The notes beneath the pieces were generated by a model. That model did not search any database. It saw only the letters and a program-made list of their open reading frames with translations, and was not told the origin of the DNA. A DNA stretch of 64,000 nucleotides, taken from NCBI GenBank assembly GCA_029254025.1, contig JAQWYK010000034.1, forward strand, positions 62,001 through 126,000, given 5' to 3'. Positions 25,364-45,921 of the stretch are shown in pieces. Made by a program: the position numbers and the translations under genes. This DNA is from Crocinitomicaceae bacterium (GTDB taxonomy: Bacteria > Bacteroidota > Bacteroidia > Flavobacteriales_D > Crocinitomicaceae). Every line of letters begins with the position of its first letter. Position 1 is the first letter of the stretch.

Positions 25364-26689
25364 CTATTTATTAATTCGCTTATAGGCCTCATAAACAACC
25401 AAACCAGCTGCTAATAATATTAAACCATAAAGAGCAGGCTCATTTCCTGAAGATAGTACCACTATTAAAAATCCGATTACAGCTGCCCCGAAAATTAACG
25501 GTAGGACTGGATAGAGCGGCAGTCGAAATACATACTTGTCTTTTGAAATAACCGACCGGAATTTAAACACAGCTAATCCTGCCATGAGCAAGAAAATCCA
25601 TTCTAGGAAGGTGACGTAATTGATTAAATCGTTGAAGGTCCCCCAGAAAATCACCAGCACAATCGACCACGCAGACTGAAGGATAATAGCGTTTGCCGGA
25701 GTATCAAACTGCTTATGGCGCCTAGCCAAGAACTTAAAAAAGACCTCGTCTTTTGCCATGGCATAATAGATTCTCGGAGCCGACATCGTAAAGATGAAGG
25801 CAGAACCAAAGGTCGAAATCACAATTAATAAGGAAATCCAAAATCCACCCGACGAAGAGAACGAACTTACTGCATCATAGGCTGCTTTCTTACTTACAGC
25901 TAATTCTGAAACACCTAAGAGGTGGATAAATGTGTAATTCACAAAAACATAGAGCAAGGTAACCACGAGAATACCGCTAATCATGGCACTGGGAACGGAC
26001 TTCTTGGGGTTGCGGGCATCACCTGCTAAAAAAGTAGCATGTTGGAAACCACCAAATGACCATAAAATGGGAATCATGGAAAGTGCGATTCCCGTCCAAA
26101 TAGATTTCGGAGTAGATGCAACAGTAGTTACTTCAGTTGACTCCCCCACAATTTGGGCACTGTAATAAACCCCGATTACAACAAGCAGAATGATTCCAAG
26201 GATTTTAACGACAGCCAAAATATTGTTAAAGATCTCCCCGACTTTAATACCGAGGGAGTGGATAATCGTATTAAAAACAATAATGCCAATGGTCAGCGCT
26301 AGAATTCCATTTTCGGTCAGTGCGCCTCCGAGTAATTCATTCGCGTAAGTGGAACACGCAAATGCGATGGCAGCGATAGATCCTGAAGTAATCACTGTTA
26401 ATACACTCCAGCCATATAAAAACGCGAAGCGCTTCCCGAAAGCTTCTTTGAGGTAAACATACACTCCACCAGCGCCTGGGAAGAGTCCTGCTAATTCGGA
26501 ATACGTTAATGCTCCTGCCAAGACAATTCCTCCACCAATTAACCAGGCTAAAATAATGTACGCTTCACTACCAATGAATTCAGCTGCAGCTTGTGGCGTC
26601 AAAAAAATACCCGAACCAATACACGCTCCAACAACCACCATGGCAAGTCCGAATGGAGAGATTTTTTGCTTGGACACTGTGTTTTTCAT
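25364..26689 (-). CDS. APC family amino acid permease
   Basis: A 441-residue transporter with about 12 membrane helices. The opening ISPFGLAMVVVGACIGSGIF carries the GSGIF helix-break motif of APC-superfamily substrate sites. FPGAGGVYVYLKEAFG is also characteristic. It is an inner-membrane importer or exchanger, and similar Bacteroidota proteins are annotated as amino acid permeases. The substrate cannot be read from sequence. It is divergently transcribed from the radical SAM gene. Confidence 0.9.
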   Translation of the reverse strand: MKNTVSKQKISPFGLAMVVVGACIGSGIFLTPQAAAEFIGSEAYIILAWLIGGGIVLAGALTYSELAGLFPGAGGVYVYLKEAFGKRFAFLYGWSVLTVITSGSIAAIAFACSTYANELLGGALTENGILALTIGIIVFNTIIHSLGIKVGEIFNNILAVVKILGIILLVVIGVYYSAQIVGESTEVTTVASTPKSIWTGIALSMIPILWSFGGFQHATFLAGDARNPKKSVPSAMISGILVVTLLYVFVNYTFIHLLGVSELAVSKKAAYDAVSSFSSSGGFWISLLIVISTFGSAFIFTMSAPRIYYAMAKDEVFFKFLARRHKQFDTPANAIILQSAWSIVLVIFWGTFNDLINYVTFLEWIFLLMAGLAVFKFRSVISKDKYVFRLPLYPVLPLIFGAAVIGFLIVVLSSGNEPALYGLILLAAGLVVYEAYKRINK

Positions 26690-26714
26690 ACAACGAATGT
26701 AGTGAATAAATGAT

Positions 26715-26722
26715 TACCTTTA
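26715..26722 (+). promoter_or_regulatory. -7-like box for the radical SAM gene
   Basis: TACCTTTA (7 of 8 to TAnnTTTG) lies 5 bp before ATG 26728. The alternative ATG at 26710 would lie upstream of this box, which favours the later start. Confidence 0.4.
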
Positions 26723-26727
26723 GCAAC

Positions 26728-27840
26728 ATGAAAACGAGACGCGTTGGTCCTACCGAATACAACGTCATTCGCCTTGGGATGTTGATCAACATCTGGTGGA
26801 TCGGTGTCCGTTTATACAAAAATCCGATCACTTCTTTTCGCGTGGTGCGCCAACTCATCCATAACTTCACGAAGATGATGGGGCGTGAAAAATTAGTACG
26901 TGCCTTTAAAACAGATGGGAAATACCATTGGGATATGTTTAATCCGGCTTGGCCATCCAAAGGGTTTGAAGCATTTTTTCGTGCACACTTGTTAGAACTT
27001 CAACCCGTGAATGGTAATGAACAATTACTTCGACGCTTACTCATTGCCATAACAAAACGTTGCCCCTTATCCTGTGAGCACTGCAGCGAAGCCGATACAT
27101 TGTACCAGAAAGACATTCTATCGTTCGAGGAGTTTTCTACACGGATCGATACATTCGTAGACAAAGGAGTTGGACAACTCGTATATTCTGGAGGAGAACC
27201 ATTGAGTCGATTCGATGACTTATTACGTTTCCTTGAACGATACAAAGGCCGATGTGACCAATGGATATACACCTCTGCATTCGGTTTATCACAAGAGAAA
27301 GCGAAGGCTTTAAAAGCAGCAGGACTCAATAGTGCAGCAGTAAGCTTAGATCATCATATTGAAGAAGAGCACAACCGTTTCCGAGGAAATAATAAATCCT
27401 TCTATTGGGTAATGGAGGGGATTAAAAATTTACAAAACGAGGGTGTTCTCGTCTCCATTAACGTTTGTCCAACCAAAGAATATATTGCACAGGGCGGACC
27501 GTCAAAAATGGTGGAATTCGCACATCAAAACGGTATTTCTATTGTGAACTTTTTGGAACCGCGCGCAGTGGGTGCCTATGCGAACAAGGAGGTTGAACTG
27601 AATCAAGAAGAAAAAGACAGCCTACACGAACTGAGTCTGAAATATAATTTCAACAAATCGCTTTTTATCTATCCAACGGTATTATTTCCTGCCGGATATC
27701 GCAAGGCACTTCCATGCGGAGGGGGACGTTCCTATTTACTCTTGGACTTCGACGGAACATTGTATCCGTGCCCGTTTTGCAAAACAAAACTACCTGCTGT
27801 AGCTCAACCTTCCGACGAGCGATTATGTGCTGCTAGTTAA
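26728..27840 (+). CDS. Radical SAM protein
   Basis: 370 residues from ATG 26728. About 105 residues of helical N-terminal extension precede the cluster motif CPLSCEHC (CX3CX2C). GGEP follows in VYSGGEPLSR. The C-terminus holds a second Cys group (PCGGG, then YPCPFCKTK) like a reduced SPASM/twitch domain. Such enzymes use a 5'-deoxyadenosyl radical to modify peptides or small molecules. The end after the CPFC motif is short and may be truncated. The next gene, 9 bp away, encodes a GNAT-like protein. No precursor peptide gene was found nearby. Confidence 0.85.
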   Translation: MKTRRVGPTEYNVIRLGMLINIWWIGVRLYKNPITSFRVVRQLIHNFTKMMGREKLVRAFKTDGKYHWDMFNPAWPSKGFEAFFRAHLLELQPVNGNEQLLRRLLIAITKRCPLSCEHCSEADTLYQKDILSFEEFSTRIDTFVDKGVGQLVYSGGEPLSRFDDLLRFLERYKGRCDQWIYTSAFGLSQEKAKALKAAGLNSAAVSLDHHIEEEHNRFRGNNKSFYWVMEGIKNLQNEGVLVSINVCPTKEYIAQGGPSKMVEFAHQNGISIVNFLEPRAVGAYANKEVELNQEEKDSLHELSLKYNFNKSLFIYPTVLFPAGYRKALPCGGGRSYLLLDFDGTLYPCPFCKTKLPAVAQPSDERLCAAS

Positions 27841-27849
27841 ACCGATAAG

Positions 27850-28437
27850 ATGAAAAGCGTTACCAAATTAACATTCTCAACTACACTATCGATTTTAACA
27901 TCAGCATTTCGAGATAACCCAGGTGTTATTTGGGTTGTAAAAAAAGATCAACGAATTTCAGCACGGGTTCAAGAGCTTTGTAGATTTTGTTTGACAACTG
28001 CCCTTCAAAAGGAGGGTGCTTTCATCACGGAAGACCAAAAAGGAGCGGCACTTTTGATTAAAAGTTGGAAGAAACAACCTCCTTGGAATTGGTTAATCGG
28101 TTACTTCCGACTCGGGCAACATTGTATCGGTTGGGATAGAGCGATTACCATTATAAAGCGAGAAAGAATAATTCAATCTAAACGACCAAAACAGAAGCAT
28201 TTGTACTTTTGGATGTTGGCCGTAAAGGACCATACGTATGGATTAGAAACCATTAAAGAGATTCGCGATTTCGTATTTGAGTATTCCGCAAAAGAACAAC
28301 TACCGATCTATGCCGAAACCACTATGAAATCAACCTTGAACTTGTATTTGCGCTATGGTTTTGAAATCTATGACACCTGGGAAACAGGAGAAAATGACAT
28401 CATCGTGTACTTTATTCGACGCGACTGGAAGCGTTAG
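27850..28437 (+). CDS. GNAT-like acyltransferase
   Basis: 195 residues, starting 9 bp after the radical SAM stop. The C-terminal half resembles GNAT N-acetyltransferases: LYFWMLAVKDHTYGLE (strand beta4 and acyl-CoA region), then PIYAETTMKSTLNLYLRYGFEIYDTW, the usual final motif. The Q/RxxGxG/A loop is degenerate. It is likely co-transcribed with the radical SAM gene. Its 3' end overlaps the convergent hydroxylase gene by 26 bp. Confidence 0.65.
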   Translation: MKSVTKLTFSTTLSILTSAFRDNPGVIWVVKKDQRISARVQELCRFCLTTALQKEGAFITEDQKGAALLIKSWKKQPPWNWLIGYFRLGQHCIGWDRAITIIKRERIIQSKRPKQKHLYFWMLAVKDHTYGLETIKEIRDFVFEYSAKEQLPIYAETTMKSTLNLYLRYGFEIYDTWETGENDIIVYFIRRDWKR

Positions 28438-29176
28438 TGCGTTTTTCGTTAATCCGTTGACTGAGTTCGTCAAAAGCAGCGTCGTACTTGGGATAGTCGG
28501 TTTTAAACCACTTATCCCACACATTCAAATAGATTCCGAAATTATAATGAACATGTTTATGATGTTGAAAATGATGTAAGGATGTATTAAAGACGCGAAA
28601 TACATTCAGTTTATTCGGTCGTAATTCATAGCCACAATGTCCATATACCGAGATGAACAATAGAAAAAAGGTAAATACCATTAATACGCCTTCATGAATA
28701 GGGAAAAGCCAGGCCACTATCGGAACTACGCCGATTTGAAACACGCCTTCCAGCGGGTGGAAGGAAAACGCTGACCAAGCATTCACCTTGTAAGATTCAT
28801 GGTGCCAAGCATGCACATATTTAAAAATCGGTCGATAGTGCAGCAACCGATGCGTCCAATAGAAGTAGATATCGTGAACTGCTAAAGCTGCGAAAAAGGT
28901 AGCAAGCAGGTAGACATAACCCATTATGGATGTGGGCCATTCCGCATACACTTGTGATGTTCCGTTGTATATCCAAAATGCTACAAGCCATCCAAATAAA
29001 GCAAAAACAAGCAGATTTAGTAACGTGTAACGTACCTCACTTGATTTTGGATTTACTGGAGACTCTCCTTCAATTAAAAAGGACTTTTTCTTGCCACCAA
29101 AGAACACATCAATGAGCTGGAAGTAAAGAATGAGCGCTAAAGCCATCAAAGGGATATAGAGGGGCCAAAATATCAT
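28412..29176 (-). CDS. Sterol desaturase/fatty acid hydroxylase family membrane protein
   Basis: A 254-residue protein with about four membrane helices and the eight-histidine di-iron signature: HDIYFYWTHRLLH, HAWHHES and HHFQHHKHVHYN. The family (FA_hydroxylase) oxidises lipid chains in the inner membrane using O2 and an electron donor. Its start overlaps the desaturase stop by 4 bp. It is the last gene of a four-gene operon. The lipid substrate is unknown. Confidence 0.9.
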   Translation of the reverse strand: MIFWPLYIPLMALALILYFQLIDVFFGGKKKSFLIEGESPVNPKSSEVRYTLLNLLVFALFGWLVAFWIYNGTSQVYAEWPTSIMGYVYLLATFFAALAVHDIYFYWTHRLLHYRPIFKYVHAWHHESYKVNAWSAFSFHPLEGVFQIGVVPIVAWLFPIHEGVLMVFTFFLLFISVYGHCGYELRPNKLNVFRVFNTSLHHFQHHKHVHYNFGIYLNVWDKWFKTDYPKYDAAFDELSQRINEKRTNASSRVE

Positions 29177-30252
29177 ACGCCTGGTTGAACTCCGTTATTT
29201 TTTAACAATCGAAAATGCGACAAGTAGGCATTAAAGAAACTATCTTCATGATTATATGGCAAGCCGAATTCTTGGGCTGTCTGTTTTATAATTGGAGTAA
29301 TTGCTGTACAATGTGTATGATTAATTGACGGAAACAAATGATGCGCCACGTGATGATTGAATCCCCCAAAGAAAAAGTTTAAAAACCAATTATTAGTCGC
29401 AAAATCAATTACTGACAGCACTTGGTGGTGCGACCAAGAGTTAGGCATAACTCCTTTGTTATTAGGTAATAAGAATAAGGAATTCTCTGCGACATGAGAA
29501 GGAATTAGCGCTAAGGTAATAAGCAAACTCGCCATAAAATTCATTCCTAAAAAGGCCAACAACACCATTTCCCAGGATAAGCGGGAAAAAAGCATGGGCA
29601 AAATAAGGATATAACTAACATAGAACAGTTTAAATAGAACCAGCTTTACAATCACTGCGACCTTATGTTTTTTCATCTCCAACGACCCAATGCGCTTTTG
29701 AAAATAATCTTGGTAGTCTCTAAAAAACAACCAATTCAATGTGTAGAGCAAGTACAGGAAGGGTGCATAAATAAACTGGTAGCGATGAGCGGGTAATACT
29801 TCGTCGTTTGGAAAAATTCTAACGAGTGGATTTTGCTTTAAATCTGCATCGTTATTCAAAATATTTGGAAAAGCATGATGCGAATATACATGGCGACGCT
29901 TCCACATGTATGAATTGGCTCCTAAAAGATCAAAGCAATTTAAGAATAAGGTATTTACCCAAGCTTTTTTAGAAATCGAATTGTGCGCAGCGTCATGGGC
30001 AACATTAATCCCGATAAGAATTGCAAAGGGTCCCATGAGTAACATGCTCGAGAAAACCAATACGTCGTTGATTGACCCCATCAATACGGCATAAAGACCT
30101 ATGTAGGTCCCAATCAACACGAATGCTTTAAAGAAAAAGAATGAGTTGGCTTGTTTCGCTTGTCCGCTTTCCACAAAATAATTATCCACCCGCTCTTTTA
30201 CCACTTCGAAAAAAGCATCAGGTTCTTGTTGAAAAGTTACGTTTTGATGCAT
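29173..30252 (-). CDS. Acyl-lipid fatty acid desaturase
   Basis: A 359-residue membrane di-iron desaturase. Histidine boxes HDAAHN, HVYSHHAF and HHVAHHLFPSINH are in the order and spacing of front-end/delta-5,6-type acyl-lipid desaturases. There are four to six membrane helices between them. No fused cytochrome b5 domain is present, so it needs an external electron donor. Its start overlaps the upstream lipoprotein stop by 1 bp and its end overlaps the hydroxylase by 4 bp. Confidence 0.92.
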   Translation of the reverse strand: MHQNVTFQQEPDAFFEVVKERVDNYFVESGQAKQANSFFFFKAFVLIGTYIGLYAVLMGSINDVLVFSSMLLMGPFAILIGINVAHDAAHNSISKKAWVNTLFLNCFDLLGANSYMWKRRHVYSHHAFPNILNNDADLKQNPLVRIFPNDEVLPAHRYQFIYAPFLYLLYTLNWLFFRDYQDYFQKRIGSLEMKKHKVAVIVKLVLFKLFYVSYILILPMLFSRLSWEMVLLAFLGMNFMASLLITLALIPSHVAENSLFLLPNNKGVMPNSWSHHQVLSVIDFATNNWFLNFFFGGFNHHVAHHLFPSINHTHCTAITPIIKQTAQEFGLPYNHEDSFFNAYLSHFRLLKNNGVQPGV

Positions 30253-31901
30253 TATTTGGCCACCATTTCTTGCATTACGTTGTAATATAATTCTCGTGAG
30301 AAGCGAGAAAGCTCTCCTGGGTTTACAAAGTACTGTAAACGCTTTCTGTCTGTTTTCCCAGTGTATTCACTCTTTGGAACATAATACCCCTTACTTTTTA
30401 AGATTAACGTGCGCTGAAGTGAAGTATCAACAGGAAGGTTCGCATAATAGACTTCCGTAGAATTAAATTCTTCTTTCTGTGCATGTTGCATATAATCATT
30501 GTCGTCAAAACTCAATTGTTGTGTGAAATCAGTACCATTATTCCCCGTTGCTTTTGCAGGTTTATGCACCTGAACCTCAACCGATTCATTAACTGAGAAA
30601 TCTAATCCAACATAGTCTAGTTCCCAGAACATAAAACCAGAACGTAAACGCACCTCCAATTCTTCTCCAAACAAGTTTCGCTGAATCGGAATCACTACTT
30701 GATTCATCGAAGGGTCCCCAACTACTTCTACCTCATCGTAGGTTACCCACTTTTCACCTTGCTTAATGTCCACCATCAATTTAATCCCTTGTTCCCGCAT
30801 CCATTTCTCACGCTCCATTTTTGATTTATCTCTGTTCATTTCGACCCACTTCCCGTGGTTCTTTCCGAATAATTTATTAAACTCATCATATACATAGCCG
30901 GACCACATCGTATTTCTTGCACGAATTAAGAGTTTAGCATCATTTGATTGATTTTTAGCATCGAATGTCATTGCCACTTCAGCCAAATCGTCAAATTGTA
31001 ACGGATTAAATCTATACGGATAATCATCGCGTGCCGCTAAATAGGATAAAACCGAGATGTTCGAATTATCAATGGCACGCATTGGCGGCTCTAGCTTTTG
31101 TAGGGTATGAATCTCTCCGTTTTTATCAGCAACTACCTCTATTCGCTTCTGATGCATCACAGTAACCACTTCTACTAAATTTGTAAATTGATCCTCGTTA
31201 TCCTCGTTCTTAATCTGAATTGTATAATCAGAAGACGTCGGCAAGTAATCTGGTAATTCCTTATAGTCAAAGCGTTCTAGTTGTTTGGCTTTCGCGCCTG
31301 TAAACAGAGTATTATTATATTCTAATTCCTCTCCATTATCAATATAGACATGAGGACAGTTGCACACAATGAGAAGAAAAGCCGTTAACCCTACCGCGGC
31401 AGATCCGACGGCAATTCCGGTGGTTGCTAGTGCGTTGAGGAATACGGCATTTTTAGTCACGTCCACTTGAAAAATGTCACTTGCTGCAAAGGCAAGTTCA
31501 GCCTCATTCAACTTTTCATATTCATTGATGAACAAATGAACTTGACGTATATCACTCGGGTAGGTATCCGAACTACGCAGTGCAGTTTGACTTCTTTTCT
31601 CTAAAACCTTTTGATAACTTGCAAAGGGAGCGCCATCAAAAGCACGAAAATTAGCACGAATGGAATCTGTGGCTTCATCATATTTAATCGCATAAACTTC
31701 TTGCATTTCATTACCTACATGAATGACGATATGATTATTGGATTCCATCATACGCCATTGTGCGTAAAGGGAATTCTCCACATTATTTGCTGTTTTAAAA
31801 TCCTTTATTGAGTGCTTATAAATTCGCTTAACACAGCCCAATTGCAGTGCAGAAAAAATGAGTAAAAGCCCAATTGTACTGGTAATTTGTTTTAATTTCA
31901 T
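30252..31901 (-). CDS. Large lipoprotein of unknown function
   Basis: 549 residues with a lipobox (QLGC, Cys23). A hydrophobic, Gly/Ala-rich segment (about 152-182) precedes a Cys pair (IVCNCPHVYI). The rest is a mixed soluble region ending in a beta-rich part. The family is not recognised. It is embedded between an outer-membrane protein gene and the desaturase, with gaps of 2 and -1 bp, so it is part of that operon. Confidence 0.75.
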   Translation of the reverse strand: MKLKQITSTIGLLLIFSALQLGCVKRIYKHSIKDFKTANNVENSLYAQWRMMESNNHIVIHVGNEMQEVYAIKYDEATDSIRANFRAFDGAPFASYQKVLEKRSQTALRSSDTYPSDIRQVHLFINEYEKLNEAELAFAASDIFQVDVTKNAVFLNALATTGIAVGSAAVGLTAFLLIVCNCPHVYIDNGEELEYNNTLFTGAKAKQLERFDYKELPDYLPTSSDYTIQIKNEDNEDQFTNLVEVVTVMHQKRIEVVADKNGEIHTLQKLEPPMRAIDNSNISVLSYLAARDDYPYRFNPLQFDDLAEVAMTFDAKNQSNDAKLLIRARNTMWSGYVYDEFNKLFGKNHGKWVEMNRDKSKMEREKWMREQGIKLMVDIKQGEKWVTYDEVEVVGDPSMNQVVIPIQRNLFGEELEVRLRSGFMFWELDYVGLDFSVNESVEVQVHKPAKATGNNGTDFTQQLSFDDNDYMQHAQKEEFNSTEVYYANLPVDTSLQRTLILKSKGYYVPKSEYTGKTDRKRLQYFVNPGELSRFSRELYYNVMQEMVAK

Positions 31902-31903
31902 GA

Positions 31904-33010
31904 TTAAGGCTTGTTAAAATGATAGATTAATTTAAATCTCAATAAGACGTTGTTCGAAAAATTAAAGCGATTTCCCCAATTCGGATAAGGGTCGATACCC
32001 TCATATACCTTTTGATATTCTCCATCATCAACTCGAGCATACACAATATCAGAAAATGCTCCTTTGTTTTTCGGATTGTGCGTCACCGCTAAATCGATAT
32101 TGAATGAGAAATTTTTATTTAAAATGAAATTATAGCCTAATCCAGCCTCCGGACGAACGAAAAAATATTCATTACTTTGAACATCCACAATTCTGTTCAC
32201 GTAATCGACACGAGGATATCCCCATTCATCCACTGTTGATTCAAAACTATCAAATATCGTGACCGCATTGTAATCAGCTATTCCTAACACAAACCCTAAA
32301 TGAAGAAAAAATCGTTCTCTAAATTTTCGATTCGGCCAAAATTTCAAGGTCATACCCGATTGTAAGGGAATGTAGCGACCGATGTAATTTGGTCGATAAT
32401 AATATCGTTGCACATCAAAATTCACGTTATTATTCTCGTCCGTATAATGATAATAATATACGATTCCATTGGCAGTAGAATACCCATTATTTTGTGGGGA
32501 AAATTCAGGAAAAATGCCTACTTCCGGGAAAGGTAATCCAATATCCAAATTTCCTTTGATACTAAGCCATTCATTGGAGAAGCGATATTCCGGTTCTACC
32601 GTAATCATTCTTCGAATGGAGTGATTCAAGCCTAATCCTTCTGGGCTAAGAAAGGAGCTAATATTTGTTCCAACCGACCATCTGCTCCGCACATCAAGGA
32701 AATTGCGGTTAATCAATCTGTCCTGGATTTCTACGGGGTAATTTGCGACCGATGATGTCCCTCCAACCTCAATCCATCTATCTTCGTACTTGTAGCGCAC
32801 TAATGCACTCATGGAGATCACTCTGGTGCGTTCGTTAACAGTATACTCAATCGTCAATGACTCTTGTGAAACACTTGTAATTTTAATAGGCCTTACTGAA
32901 CCATTGGAGAAAATCAGCGTATCTTGGGCACTGATTAAGTTGGTTACTAGTATCAATAAAAGTATTATAGGTAATCGATTAGAGATTAGTTGAAAGAAAG
33001 TAATGTACAT
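31904..33010 (-). CDS. Outer-membrane protein of unknown function (predicted beta-barrel)
   Basis: 368 residues with a signal peptide ending near ISAQ (about 1-28). The N-terminal part resembles a short beta-sandwich with SNGSVRPIKITSVSQ, and a barrel-like region from about 110 on alternates polar and hydrophobic residues with many Tyr. The end NNVLLRFKLIYHFNKP suits an outer-membrane strand. It is first in the operon with the lipoprotein and two lipid enzymes. Confidence 0.7.
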   Translation of the reverse strand: MYITFFQLISNRLPIILLLILVTNLISAQDTLIFSNGSVRPIKITSVSQESLTIEYTVNERTRVISMSALVRYKYEDRWIEVGGTSSVANYPVEIQDRLINRNFLDVRSRWSVGTNISSFLSPEGLGLNHSIRRMITVEPEYRFSNEWLSIKGNLDIGLPFPEVGIFPEFSPQNNGYSTANGIVYYYHYTDENNNVNFDVQRYYYRPNYIGRYIPLQSGMTLKFWPNRKFRERFFLHLGFVLGIADYNAVTIFDSFESTVDEWGYPRVDYVNRIVDVQSNEYFFVRPEAGLGYNFILNKNFSFNIDLAVTHNPKNKGAFSDIVYARVDDGEYQKVYEGIDPYPNWGNRFNFSNNVLLRFKLIYHFNKP

Positions 33011-33024
33011 TGTCTATCTTTTCT

Positions 33025-33032
33025 CAAAGATA
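33025..33032 (-). promoter_or_regulatory. TAnnTTTG -7 box for the outer-membrane protein/desaturase operon
   Basis: Minus-strand TATCTTTG, an exact consensus match, ends 14 bp before the ATG of the first gene at 33010. The expected leader is about 10 nt. Confidence 0.6.
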
Positions 33033-45844: not shown

Positions 45845-45921
45845 TTTACTTGTATTATGAAGGGAATTGGGAATTAAGGCATCCTCCTCCGCCAATTAGC
45901 CCCCTTCGTTGATTAAAAAAA

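Follow-up and report, generated by a model that had tools for sequence, protein, structure and literature searches.

A lipoprotein-radical-SAM gene pair recurrent in Bacteroidota at the core of a putative six-gene envelope-lipid module

Four tightly packed minus-strand genes at 28412-33010 of the window (the whole 64,000-nucleotide stretch of Crocinitomicaceae DNA analysed here) raise the question of what a predicted barrel (BAR) and a lipoprotein (LIP) do beside a desaturase (DES) and a hydroxylase (HYD), and of where the unit ends. The packing, as described in the initial annotation, is real: LIP and BAR lie 2 nt apart, DES overlaps LIP by 1 base and HYD overlaps DES by 4 bases. On the plus strand, a radical-SAM enzyme (rSAM) and a GNAT-type transferase converge on this set, with the 3' end of GNAT running 26 bases into HYD (Table 1). 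Separating gaps within the six genes measure 2 and 9 bases, all other junctions being overlaps, and therefore leave no space for a separate precursor gene between them. The promoter earlier placed at 33025 fits the TATCTTTG box, which we read as promoter-like on the basis of TAnnTTTG, presumably the Bacteroidota promoter consensus; a sigma-70 promoter scan listed nothing at this site, and a second box of similar kind, TATATTTG, is found in the copy of genome UBA2104. The GC content of the module (0.38-0.43) is similar to that of the flanking DNA, and we rejected a horizontal island by composition.

Table 1. Features of the six-gene module in the window
Feature	Positions	Strand	Remarks
BAR (small barrel)	31904-33010	minus	368 aa ORF; no Pfam cut-off passed
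LIP (lipoprotein)	30252-31901	minus	549 aa ORF; no Pfam cut-off passed
DES (desaturase)	29173-30252	minus	359 aa; PF00487
HYD (hydroxylase)	28412-29176	minus	254 aa; PF04116
GNAT-type acyl/acetyltransferase	27850-28437	plus	convergent with HYD; GNAT structure profile matches
rSAM (radical-SAM enzyme)	26710-27840	plus	PF04055; convergent with the four-gene set
TATCTTTG promoter-like box	33025-33032 (read 33032-33025)	minus	upstream of BAR

The initial annotation proposed an operon of BAR, LIP, DES and HYD, and made this reading depend on the four genes co-occurring in other genomes. They do so, in identical order, in the Flavobacteriales genome UBA2104 (L094, which is L114). This shared order and the packing as one transcription unit would suit a system in which DES and HYD by themselves make a lipid that BAR and LIP move or sense, rSAM and GNAT being uninvolved. 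We consider such a system highly unlikely, and an operon of the four alone was rejected, because rSAM and GNAT, which had been omitted, accompany DES-HYD in every one of the four copies and are conserved about equally well, whereas BAR is missing from two. Rather, the conserved enzyme unit is rSAM-GNAT-DES-HYD, a quartet found in four genomes including the window, among them two further genomes, L115 and L221, in which DES-HYD also occurs with LIP. The quartet comes in two arrangements, which argues against mere inherited gene order. Identities to the window proteins in L114, L115 and L221, respectively, are 72, 61 and 52% for rSAM, 65, 60 and 48% for GNAT, 72, 63 and 53% for DES, 62, 49 and 45% for HYD, and 56, 40 and 28% for LIP; BAR is 39% identical in L114 and absent from the other two. 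LIP evolves faster than the quartet enzymes, and the barrel is optional. The quartet rSAMs form one clade (SH-aLRT 100) and the quartet LIPs do not (AU p 0.008, a value partly dependent on the long L221 branch of 2.4).

Beyond these copies, LIP and rSAM form a conserved, widely recurring gene pair in Bacteroidota, whose carriers include isolates of Hymenobacter, Flavisolibacter and Segetibacter. An rSAM gene lies near LIP in 58 of 73 LIP loci, a count that includes near-duplicates (seven pairs above 85% identity); within the first 64 loci it is present in 50, directly adjacent in 41 and on the same strand in 44, and the two genes often overlap or nearly touch. Across 395 genomes of the phylum, rSAM exceeds 280 bits in nine, all of which are among the ten with LIP above 260 bits (p 1.7e-17), both cut-offs having been chosen after gaps were seen in the lists. 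Strictly obligate partnership was nevertheless rejected, as 15 of the 73 loci have no rSAM nearby. The genomes of 11 of these 15 and of L161, 12 in all, were probed, with L141 and L160 as positive controls; by contig name, L116, L173 and L174 belong to the genomes of L123, L165 and L166. This probing located rSAM elsewhere in six genomes and gave none in the other six (L127, L138, L146, L149, L153 and L165, with L127 and L146 on contigs of 4-5 kb), and the phylum survey gave no rSAM match for L224 (G286). The LIP-rSAM pair is the phylum-wide core of the six-gene unit, a core for which we found no family name: neither LIP nor this rSAM is covered by a Pfam or NCBIfam family, and literature searches with little coverage of subscription papers gave no description of the pair.

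LIP carries a hydrophobic stretch at residues 6-24 and a signal sequence ending in Cys23, which is conserved in all 54 aligned relatives. Judged by these sequence features, it is a predicted bacterial lipoprotein, in agreement with the initial annotation, although the -3 residue in the window is a Gln, which we take to be atypical for a lipobox. LIP also has a hydrophobic stretch at about 152-183, an SCP-type motif (Cys182-Pro183) and a C-terminal beta region that may contain a galactose-binding-like domain, at about 263-440. This putative domain resembles the carbohydrate-binding or galactose-binding-like jelly rolls of CBM6, CBM32, CBM35 and BcsB over 109-125 aligned residues (rmsd 3.0-4.1), with VIA Z scores of 9-10 in many matches to the CBMs but weak Foldseek E-values and an identity of just 4-14%. 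None of the 54 LIP members matches an NCBIfam model, and a sequence search of solved structures returned no match for LIP, DES or HYD. BAR comprises a signal sequence, a small N-terminal beta domain and a predicted eight-stranded outer-membrane barrel. The barrel proposed earlier is supported by an AlphaFold model (mean pLDDT 70) that aligns to OprF (VIA Z 14.9; 133 residues, rmsd 2.6), OmpA (14.3) and OmpW (13.2), and we regard BAR as OmpA-like by predicted fold, although it matches no Pfam family at E values up to 1 and does not belong to an OmpA-like family by sequence. Likeness to these and to the small barrels PagL and PagP (Z 14.9 to 10.6) implies no function, and the N-terminal beta domain of BAR is an addition to them. 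BAR homologues adjoin LIP in L114, L116, L118, L120, L121 and L142.

The rSAM belongs to the radical-SAM superfamily (PF04055, 61.6 bits against a cut-off of 29.5) and contains a CxxxCxxC motif at 118-125, the three cysteines of which are invariant among 46 members. Further, SPASM/twitch-like cysteines, C336, C354 and C373, are likewise invariant, and C357 is present in at least 90% of the 46; in SPASM/twitch enzymes a C-terminal cysteine set binds an auxiliary 4Fe-4S cluster. The LIP-rSAM pairing recalls the systems of TIGR04133 (rSAM_w_lipo), which, going by the name, presumably pair a radical-SAM/SPASM-type enzyme with a lipoprotein as in the window. However, the rSAM of the window reaches 55 of the 425 bits required (best E-value among other members, 1.3e-18), and LIP has no NCBIfam match. 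SkfB and PqqE, which we take to act on peptides, are among the solved structures nearest to the rSAM profile, as are MoaA and a tetraether-lipid synthase. The main rival to a role in lipid synthesis is one in which rSAM matures LIP by radical modification before export, in the manner of SPASM enzymes acting on peptides and sulfatases, DES, HYD and GNAT being separate. The likeness to SkfB and PqqE and the conserved, often overlapping or nearly touching gene pair speak for it, as does the C-terminal tail of LIP, which goes with rSAM: in the nine strong-rSAM genomes, the profile match of LIP extends to 543-547 (to 527 in G304), whereas the match ends at or before 531 in 20 of 21 other long relatives examined. 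We nonetheless judge LIP maturation unlikely, given that MoaA and tetraether-lipid synthase are equally among the nearest structures, that some LIPs occur in genomes where no rSAM was found, and that the quartet rSAMs form a clade that their LIPs do not. In addition, C182, the sole invariant non-lipobox cysteine of LIP, was rejected as a specific target, since relatives in genomes lacking a strong rSAM (G187 and G405 among them, with a weaker one) have the SCP motif as well; three rSAM-positive LIPs (L180, L181 and L184) did not match a regular expression for the motif. A ribosomal-peptide cluster, in which rSAM would modify a small precursor for the other genes to lipidate and export, seems very improbable: GNAT and the desaturase could lipidate a peptide, and rSAM is about equally similar to peptide maturases and to other radical-SAM groups, but it falls below every peptide-maturase cut-off and the gene junctions leave a precursor no room.

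The identities first assigned to DES and HYD hold. DES is a fatty acid desaturase (PF00487, 112.1 bits against 29.7) with His boxes HDAAH, HVYSHH and HHVAHH and equivalents in all four copies, and it falls outside the housekeeping desaturases, in a specialised clade. HYD is by sequence a fatty-acid-hydroxylase (sterol desaturase superfamily) enzyme (PF04116, 86.3 bits against 31), with His boxes in all four copies, and most LIP-linked HYDs group in two clades (support 100/100 and 92/87). GNAT passes no Pfam cut-off, and its profile matches to structures 2qec (5.4e-6) and 7k09 (2.3e-5) place it in the superfamily. A fatty-acid-hydroxylase family protein together with an N-acyltransferase-like GNAT recalls ornithine-lipid synthesis, where OlsB is a GNAT-type enzyme alongside an OlsE-type hydroxylase. 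However, HYD scores 34.7 bits against OlsE (NF052566), its nearest named lipid enzyme, where 475 are needed, and to our knowledge the ornithine-lipid pathway has no place for a desaturase or an rSAM. Sphingolipid- and sulfonolipid-type clusters combine an alpha-oxoamine synthase, an acyltransferase and a desaturase. DES relatives do stand beside alpha-oxoamine synthases in L160, there between LIP and rSAM, and in L261, the synthases scoring below the NCBIfam serine palmitoyltransferase cut-offs, but none of the six module genes encodes one. Another DES relative occurs with a ketoacyl synthase III and a sulfotransferase (L111), and a GNAT accompanies DES relatives in L108, L163 and L261. The wider GNAT family is found in 12 other genomes of 395, mostly away from desaturases, and as proof of a lipid pathway GNAT is weak, a desaturase adjoining its relative in just one of 13 neighbourhoods fetched (L261).

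In 12 of the 73 loci, HYD or DES is no more than five genes away from LIP, and rSAM is present every time. Thus, of the tie first drawn between two di-iron enzymes and an envelope pair, the lipoprotein link recurs, whereas the barrel is lacking in two of the three other quartet copies. The 607 genes located up to five positions from LIP include 11 HYD and 7 DES matches, and the 361 farther genes none of either (p 2e-4 taken together). This enrichment, the matching rSAM and HYD clades and the occurrence of one gene set in two arrangements make it distinctly improbable that DES and HYD are ordinary neighbours that tailor chains, for example for membrane fluidity, beside an unrelated LIP-rSAM pair by chance. 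Desaturases are nevertheless found in 143 and hydroxylases in 54 of 149 relatives, most LIP-rSAM loci lack both, and a lipid is not evident at most LIP loci, since HYD and DES are both missing from the stretch fetched for 61 of 73.

We suggest, at about even chances, that the six genes constitute an envelope-lipid module whose enzymes make a modified, probably amine-linked, putative envelope lipid, with LIP and BAR as envelope partners. rSAM, GNAT, DES and HYD would form a single cytoplasmic or inner-membrane pathway. In it, GNAT may attach an acyl chain to an amine; desaturation and hydroxylation, of either that chain or the head group, may fall to DES and HYD; and rSAM may contribute a further, radical-based step, acting on the lipid or on a precursor of it. 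In the outer membrane, BAR and the periplasm-facing LIP, with its sugar-binding-like fold, would bind, place or stabilise the product. The four enzymes are a set whose deletion should alter one lipid, and a lipid shaped by radical-SAM chemistry would, if real, add a chemistry to those of bacterial outer membranes. Were LIP instead the target of rSAM, a large exported lipoprotein would join the known radical-SAM maturase substrates; in either case, a lipoprotein family with neither a Pfam nor an NCBIfam model would gain a function.

In other Bacteroidota, the LIP-rSAM pair may be served by other lipid enzymes. Different sets indeed accompany it, namely a ketoacyl-synthase III with HYD, or a desaturase with an alpha-oxoamine synthase and a sulfotransferase. 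A broader and more tentative reading, somewhat doubtful at present, is an unnamed LIP/rSAM envelope system of the phylum, in which radical chemistry builds a putative outer-membrane lipid, swappable enzyme sets (desaturase, hydroxylase, GNAT, ketoacyl synthase III, alpha-oxoamine synthase and sulfotransferase) supply different lipids, and LIP and the barrel place the product. The gene pair itself links two unnamed protein families, present in much of the phylum, in a specific way that can be tested. Biotin genes adjoin L150, and we deem them incidental because L144, L155 and L156 have the ketoacyl-synthase-III/HYD pair but no such genes beside it.

The four open reading frames that the initial annotation had joined into an operon behind a promoter at 33025, encoding a small barrel (BAR), a lipoprotein (LIP), a desaturase (DES) and a hydroxylase (HYD), are all present on the minus strand at 28412-33010. 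Neighbouring frames are separated by a 2-base gap or overlap by 1 and 4 bases, and a TATCTTTG box lies at 33032-33025. The unit as drawn is nevertheless too small, leaving out two genes that converge into HYD and encode a radical-SAM enzyme (rSAM) and a GNAT-type protein (GNAT). The starts of rSAM and of a minus-strand gene divergent from it, which by its sequence we take to be amino-acid-permease-like, are only 20 bases apart (26689-26710), and their promoters must therefore overlap. Elsewhere in the window, an S4-Flavobacteria ribosomal leader at 45865-45897 (minus strand) scores marginally above its cut-off (35.3 versus 35.2 bits).

Genes converging on HYD in the window
Feature	Position	Strand	Remark
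rSAM, radical-SAM enzyme	26710-27840	+	Convergent toward HYD
GNAT-type protein	27850-28437	+	Convergent; overlaps HYD by 26 bases

Gene order, which the initial annotation proposed to check within Flavobacteriales, is indeed conserved in UBA2104, where all six genes keep their order between different flanks. A Cyclobacteriaceae MAG carries LIP-DES-HYD convergent with GNAT-rSAM and lacks BAR, and in a third genome, of the same class (G304, locus L221), DES-HYD converge with GNAT and rSAM, and LIP lies upstream of the latter. Across these three copies, the identity of the four enzymes to those of the window declines in parallel (62-72 %, 49-63 % and 45-53 %), while LIP is 56, 40 and 28 % identical and BAR is kept in UBA2104 only (39 %).

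LIP relatives occur in 13 of the 149 genomes nearest to the window, its own included, and a scan of species genomes yielded 64 LIP loci, mostly in Bacteroidota, with one each in Candidatus Delongbacteria, Neomarinimicrobiota and an FCB-group MAG. An rSAM is present at 50 of the 64 loci with a LIP frame (63 from the scan plus the window), directly adjacent in 41 and on the same strand in 44, the adjacent pairs mostly being spaced between a 20-base overlap and a 60-base gap. With nine loci from a phylum survey added, the count becomes 58 of 73. Among the 395 genomes sampled in that survey, LIP exceeds 260 bits in 10 and rSAM 280 bits in 9; all 9 are shared, with the two genes at most four genes apart in each, an overlap with a chance of 1.7e-17 if the two were independent, kinship being ignored. 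The genomes are mostly metagenome bins, frames were called with our own script (longest frame wins), and near-duplicate loci remain in the counts. At L131:11487-12735, two overlapping frames (287 and 157 aa) represent a split rSAM gene, which is a frameshift or an assembly error.

DES and HYD pass Pfam cut-offs and retain their His boxes. Profiles made from relatives of each match 11 HYD and 7 DES in the 607 genes that lie no more than five genes from LIP, and none of 361 genes further away. Matches above 100 bits occur at 12 of the 73 LIP loci, all 12 with rSAM. In the tree, 10 of the 11 LIP-linked HYDs fall into one broad group, comprising a clade of HYDs from loci with the window-type set of rSAM, GNAT, DES and HYD (support 100/100), a five-member clade with the order LIP-rSAM-HYD (92/87; a ketoacyl-synthase-III-like gene in three) and the unplaced L155; the eleventh, a second HYD of L220, is distant. 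HYD and such a synthase gene adjoin LIP-rSAM at four loci (L144, L150, L155, L156).

Housekeeping desaturases form a clade that does not include the window DES. Relatives of this DES have an alpha-oxoamine synthase plus GNAT as neighbours at L261, GNAT and another desaturase at L108 and L163, and ketoacyl synthase III alongside a sulfotransferase at L111; at L160:9431-17365 the relative belongs to a row made up of LIP, this desaturase, an alpha-oxoamine synthase, a putative transferase, a sulfotransferase and rSAM. The row at L108:4884-11540 contains GNAT, both desaturases, a glycosyltransferase, PAP2, PMT_2 and a possible barrel gene; LIP and rSAM are absent from it. Around LIP at L095-L098, L117-L119, L122 and L126 are varying sets drawn from an HMG-CoA reductase with a fused APH-type kinase, a desaturase-like membrane enzyme, a PEP-synthase-like protein, a PF14907 nucleotidyltransferase and an epimerase; these may represent a further product line linked to the LIP-rSAM pair.

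We suggest, at about even odds, that GNAT, DES, HYD and rSAM together produce a single lipid, in or at the inner membrane, and that LIP, probably on the periplasmic face of the outer membrane, would bind or place it together with the barrel. BAR is predicted to form an OmpA/OprF/OmpW-like barrel preceded by a small N-terminal beta domain. In LIP, Cys23 closes the signal sequence and a hydrophobic stretch spans residues ~152-183; the rest is beta-rich, and residues 263-440 tentatively resemble carbohydrate-binding jelly rolls, a likeness that would be in keeping with a polar or sugar head group on the lipid.

In the chief alternative, LIP itself could be the target that rSAM modifies, which would explain why its C-terminal tail is found mostly in rSAM-bearing genomes. 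We consider this improbable. The obvious candidate target, the Cys-Pro motif (SCP-type, Cys182-Pro183), is also present in relatives whose genomes lack a strong rSAM, which points toward an rSAM working in the pathway of DES, HYD and GNAT rather than one fitted to LIP. Trees of the 56 loci carrying both proteins lean the same way: the rSAMs of the four-enzyme loci form one clade (SH-aLRT 100) that leaves those of the second HYD group unsplit (100, rows of no group left out of the count), whereas the corresponding LIPs do not, and constraining them to group is rejected (AU p 0.008). Because L221 contributes a long-branched LIP, this comparison is suggestive only.

DES, HYD and rSAM are members of their respective superfamilies. 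Membership tests place HYD outside OlsE, rSAM outside TIGR04133 and the module outside the sphingolipid clusters. None of 54 LIPs matches an NCBIfam model and Pfam models touch only single members, while the window rSAM stays below every NCBIfam cut-off among the families listed; we found no named family for LIP or this rSAM subfamily, nor, in the accessible part of the open-licence literature, an account of the pair. A wider family with the SCP motif (L188-L207; about 510-640 aa) occurs in genomes most of which lack this rSAM; larger proteins (about 900-1200 aa) matched in the phylum survey share with LIP mostly the stretch around this motif.
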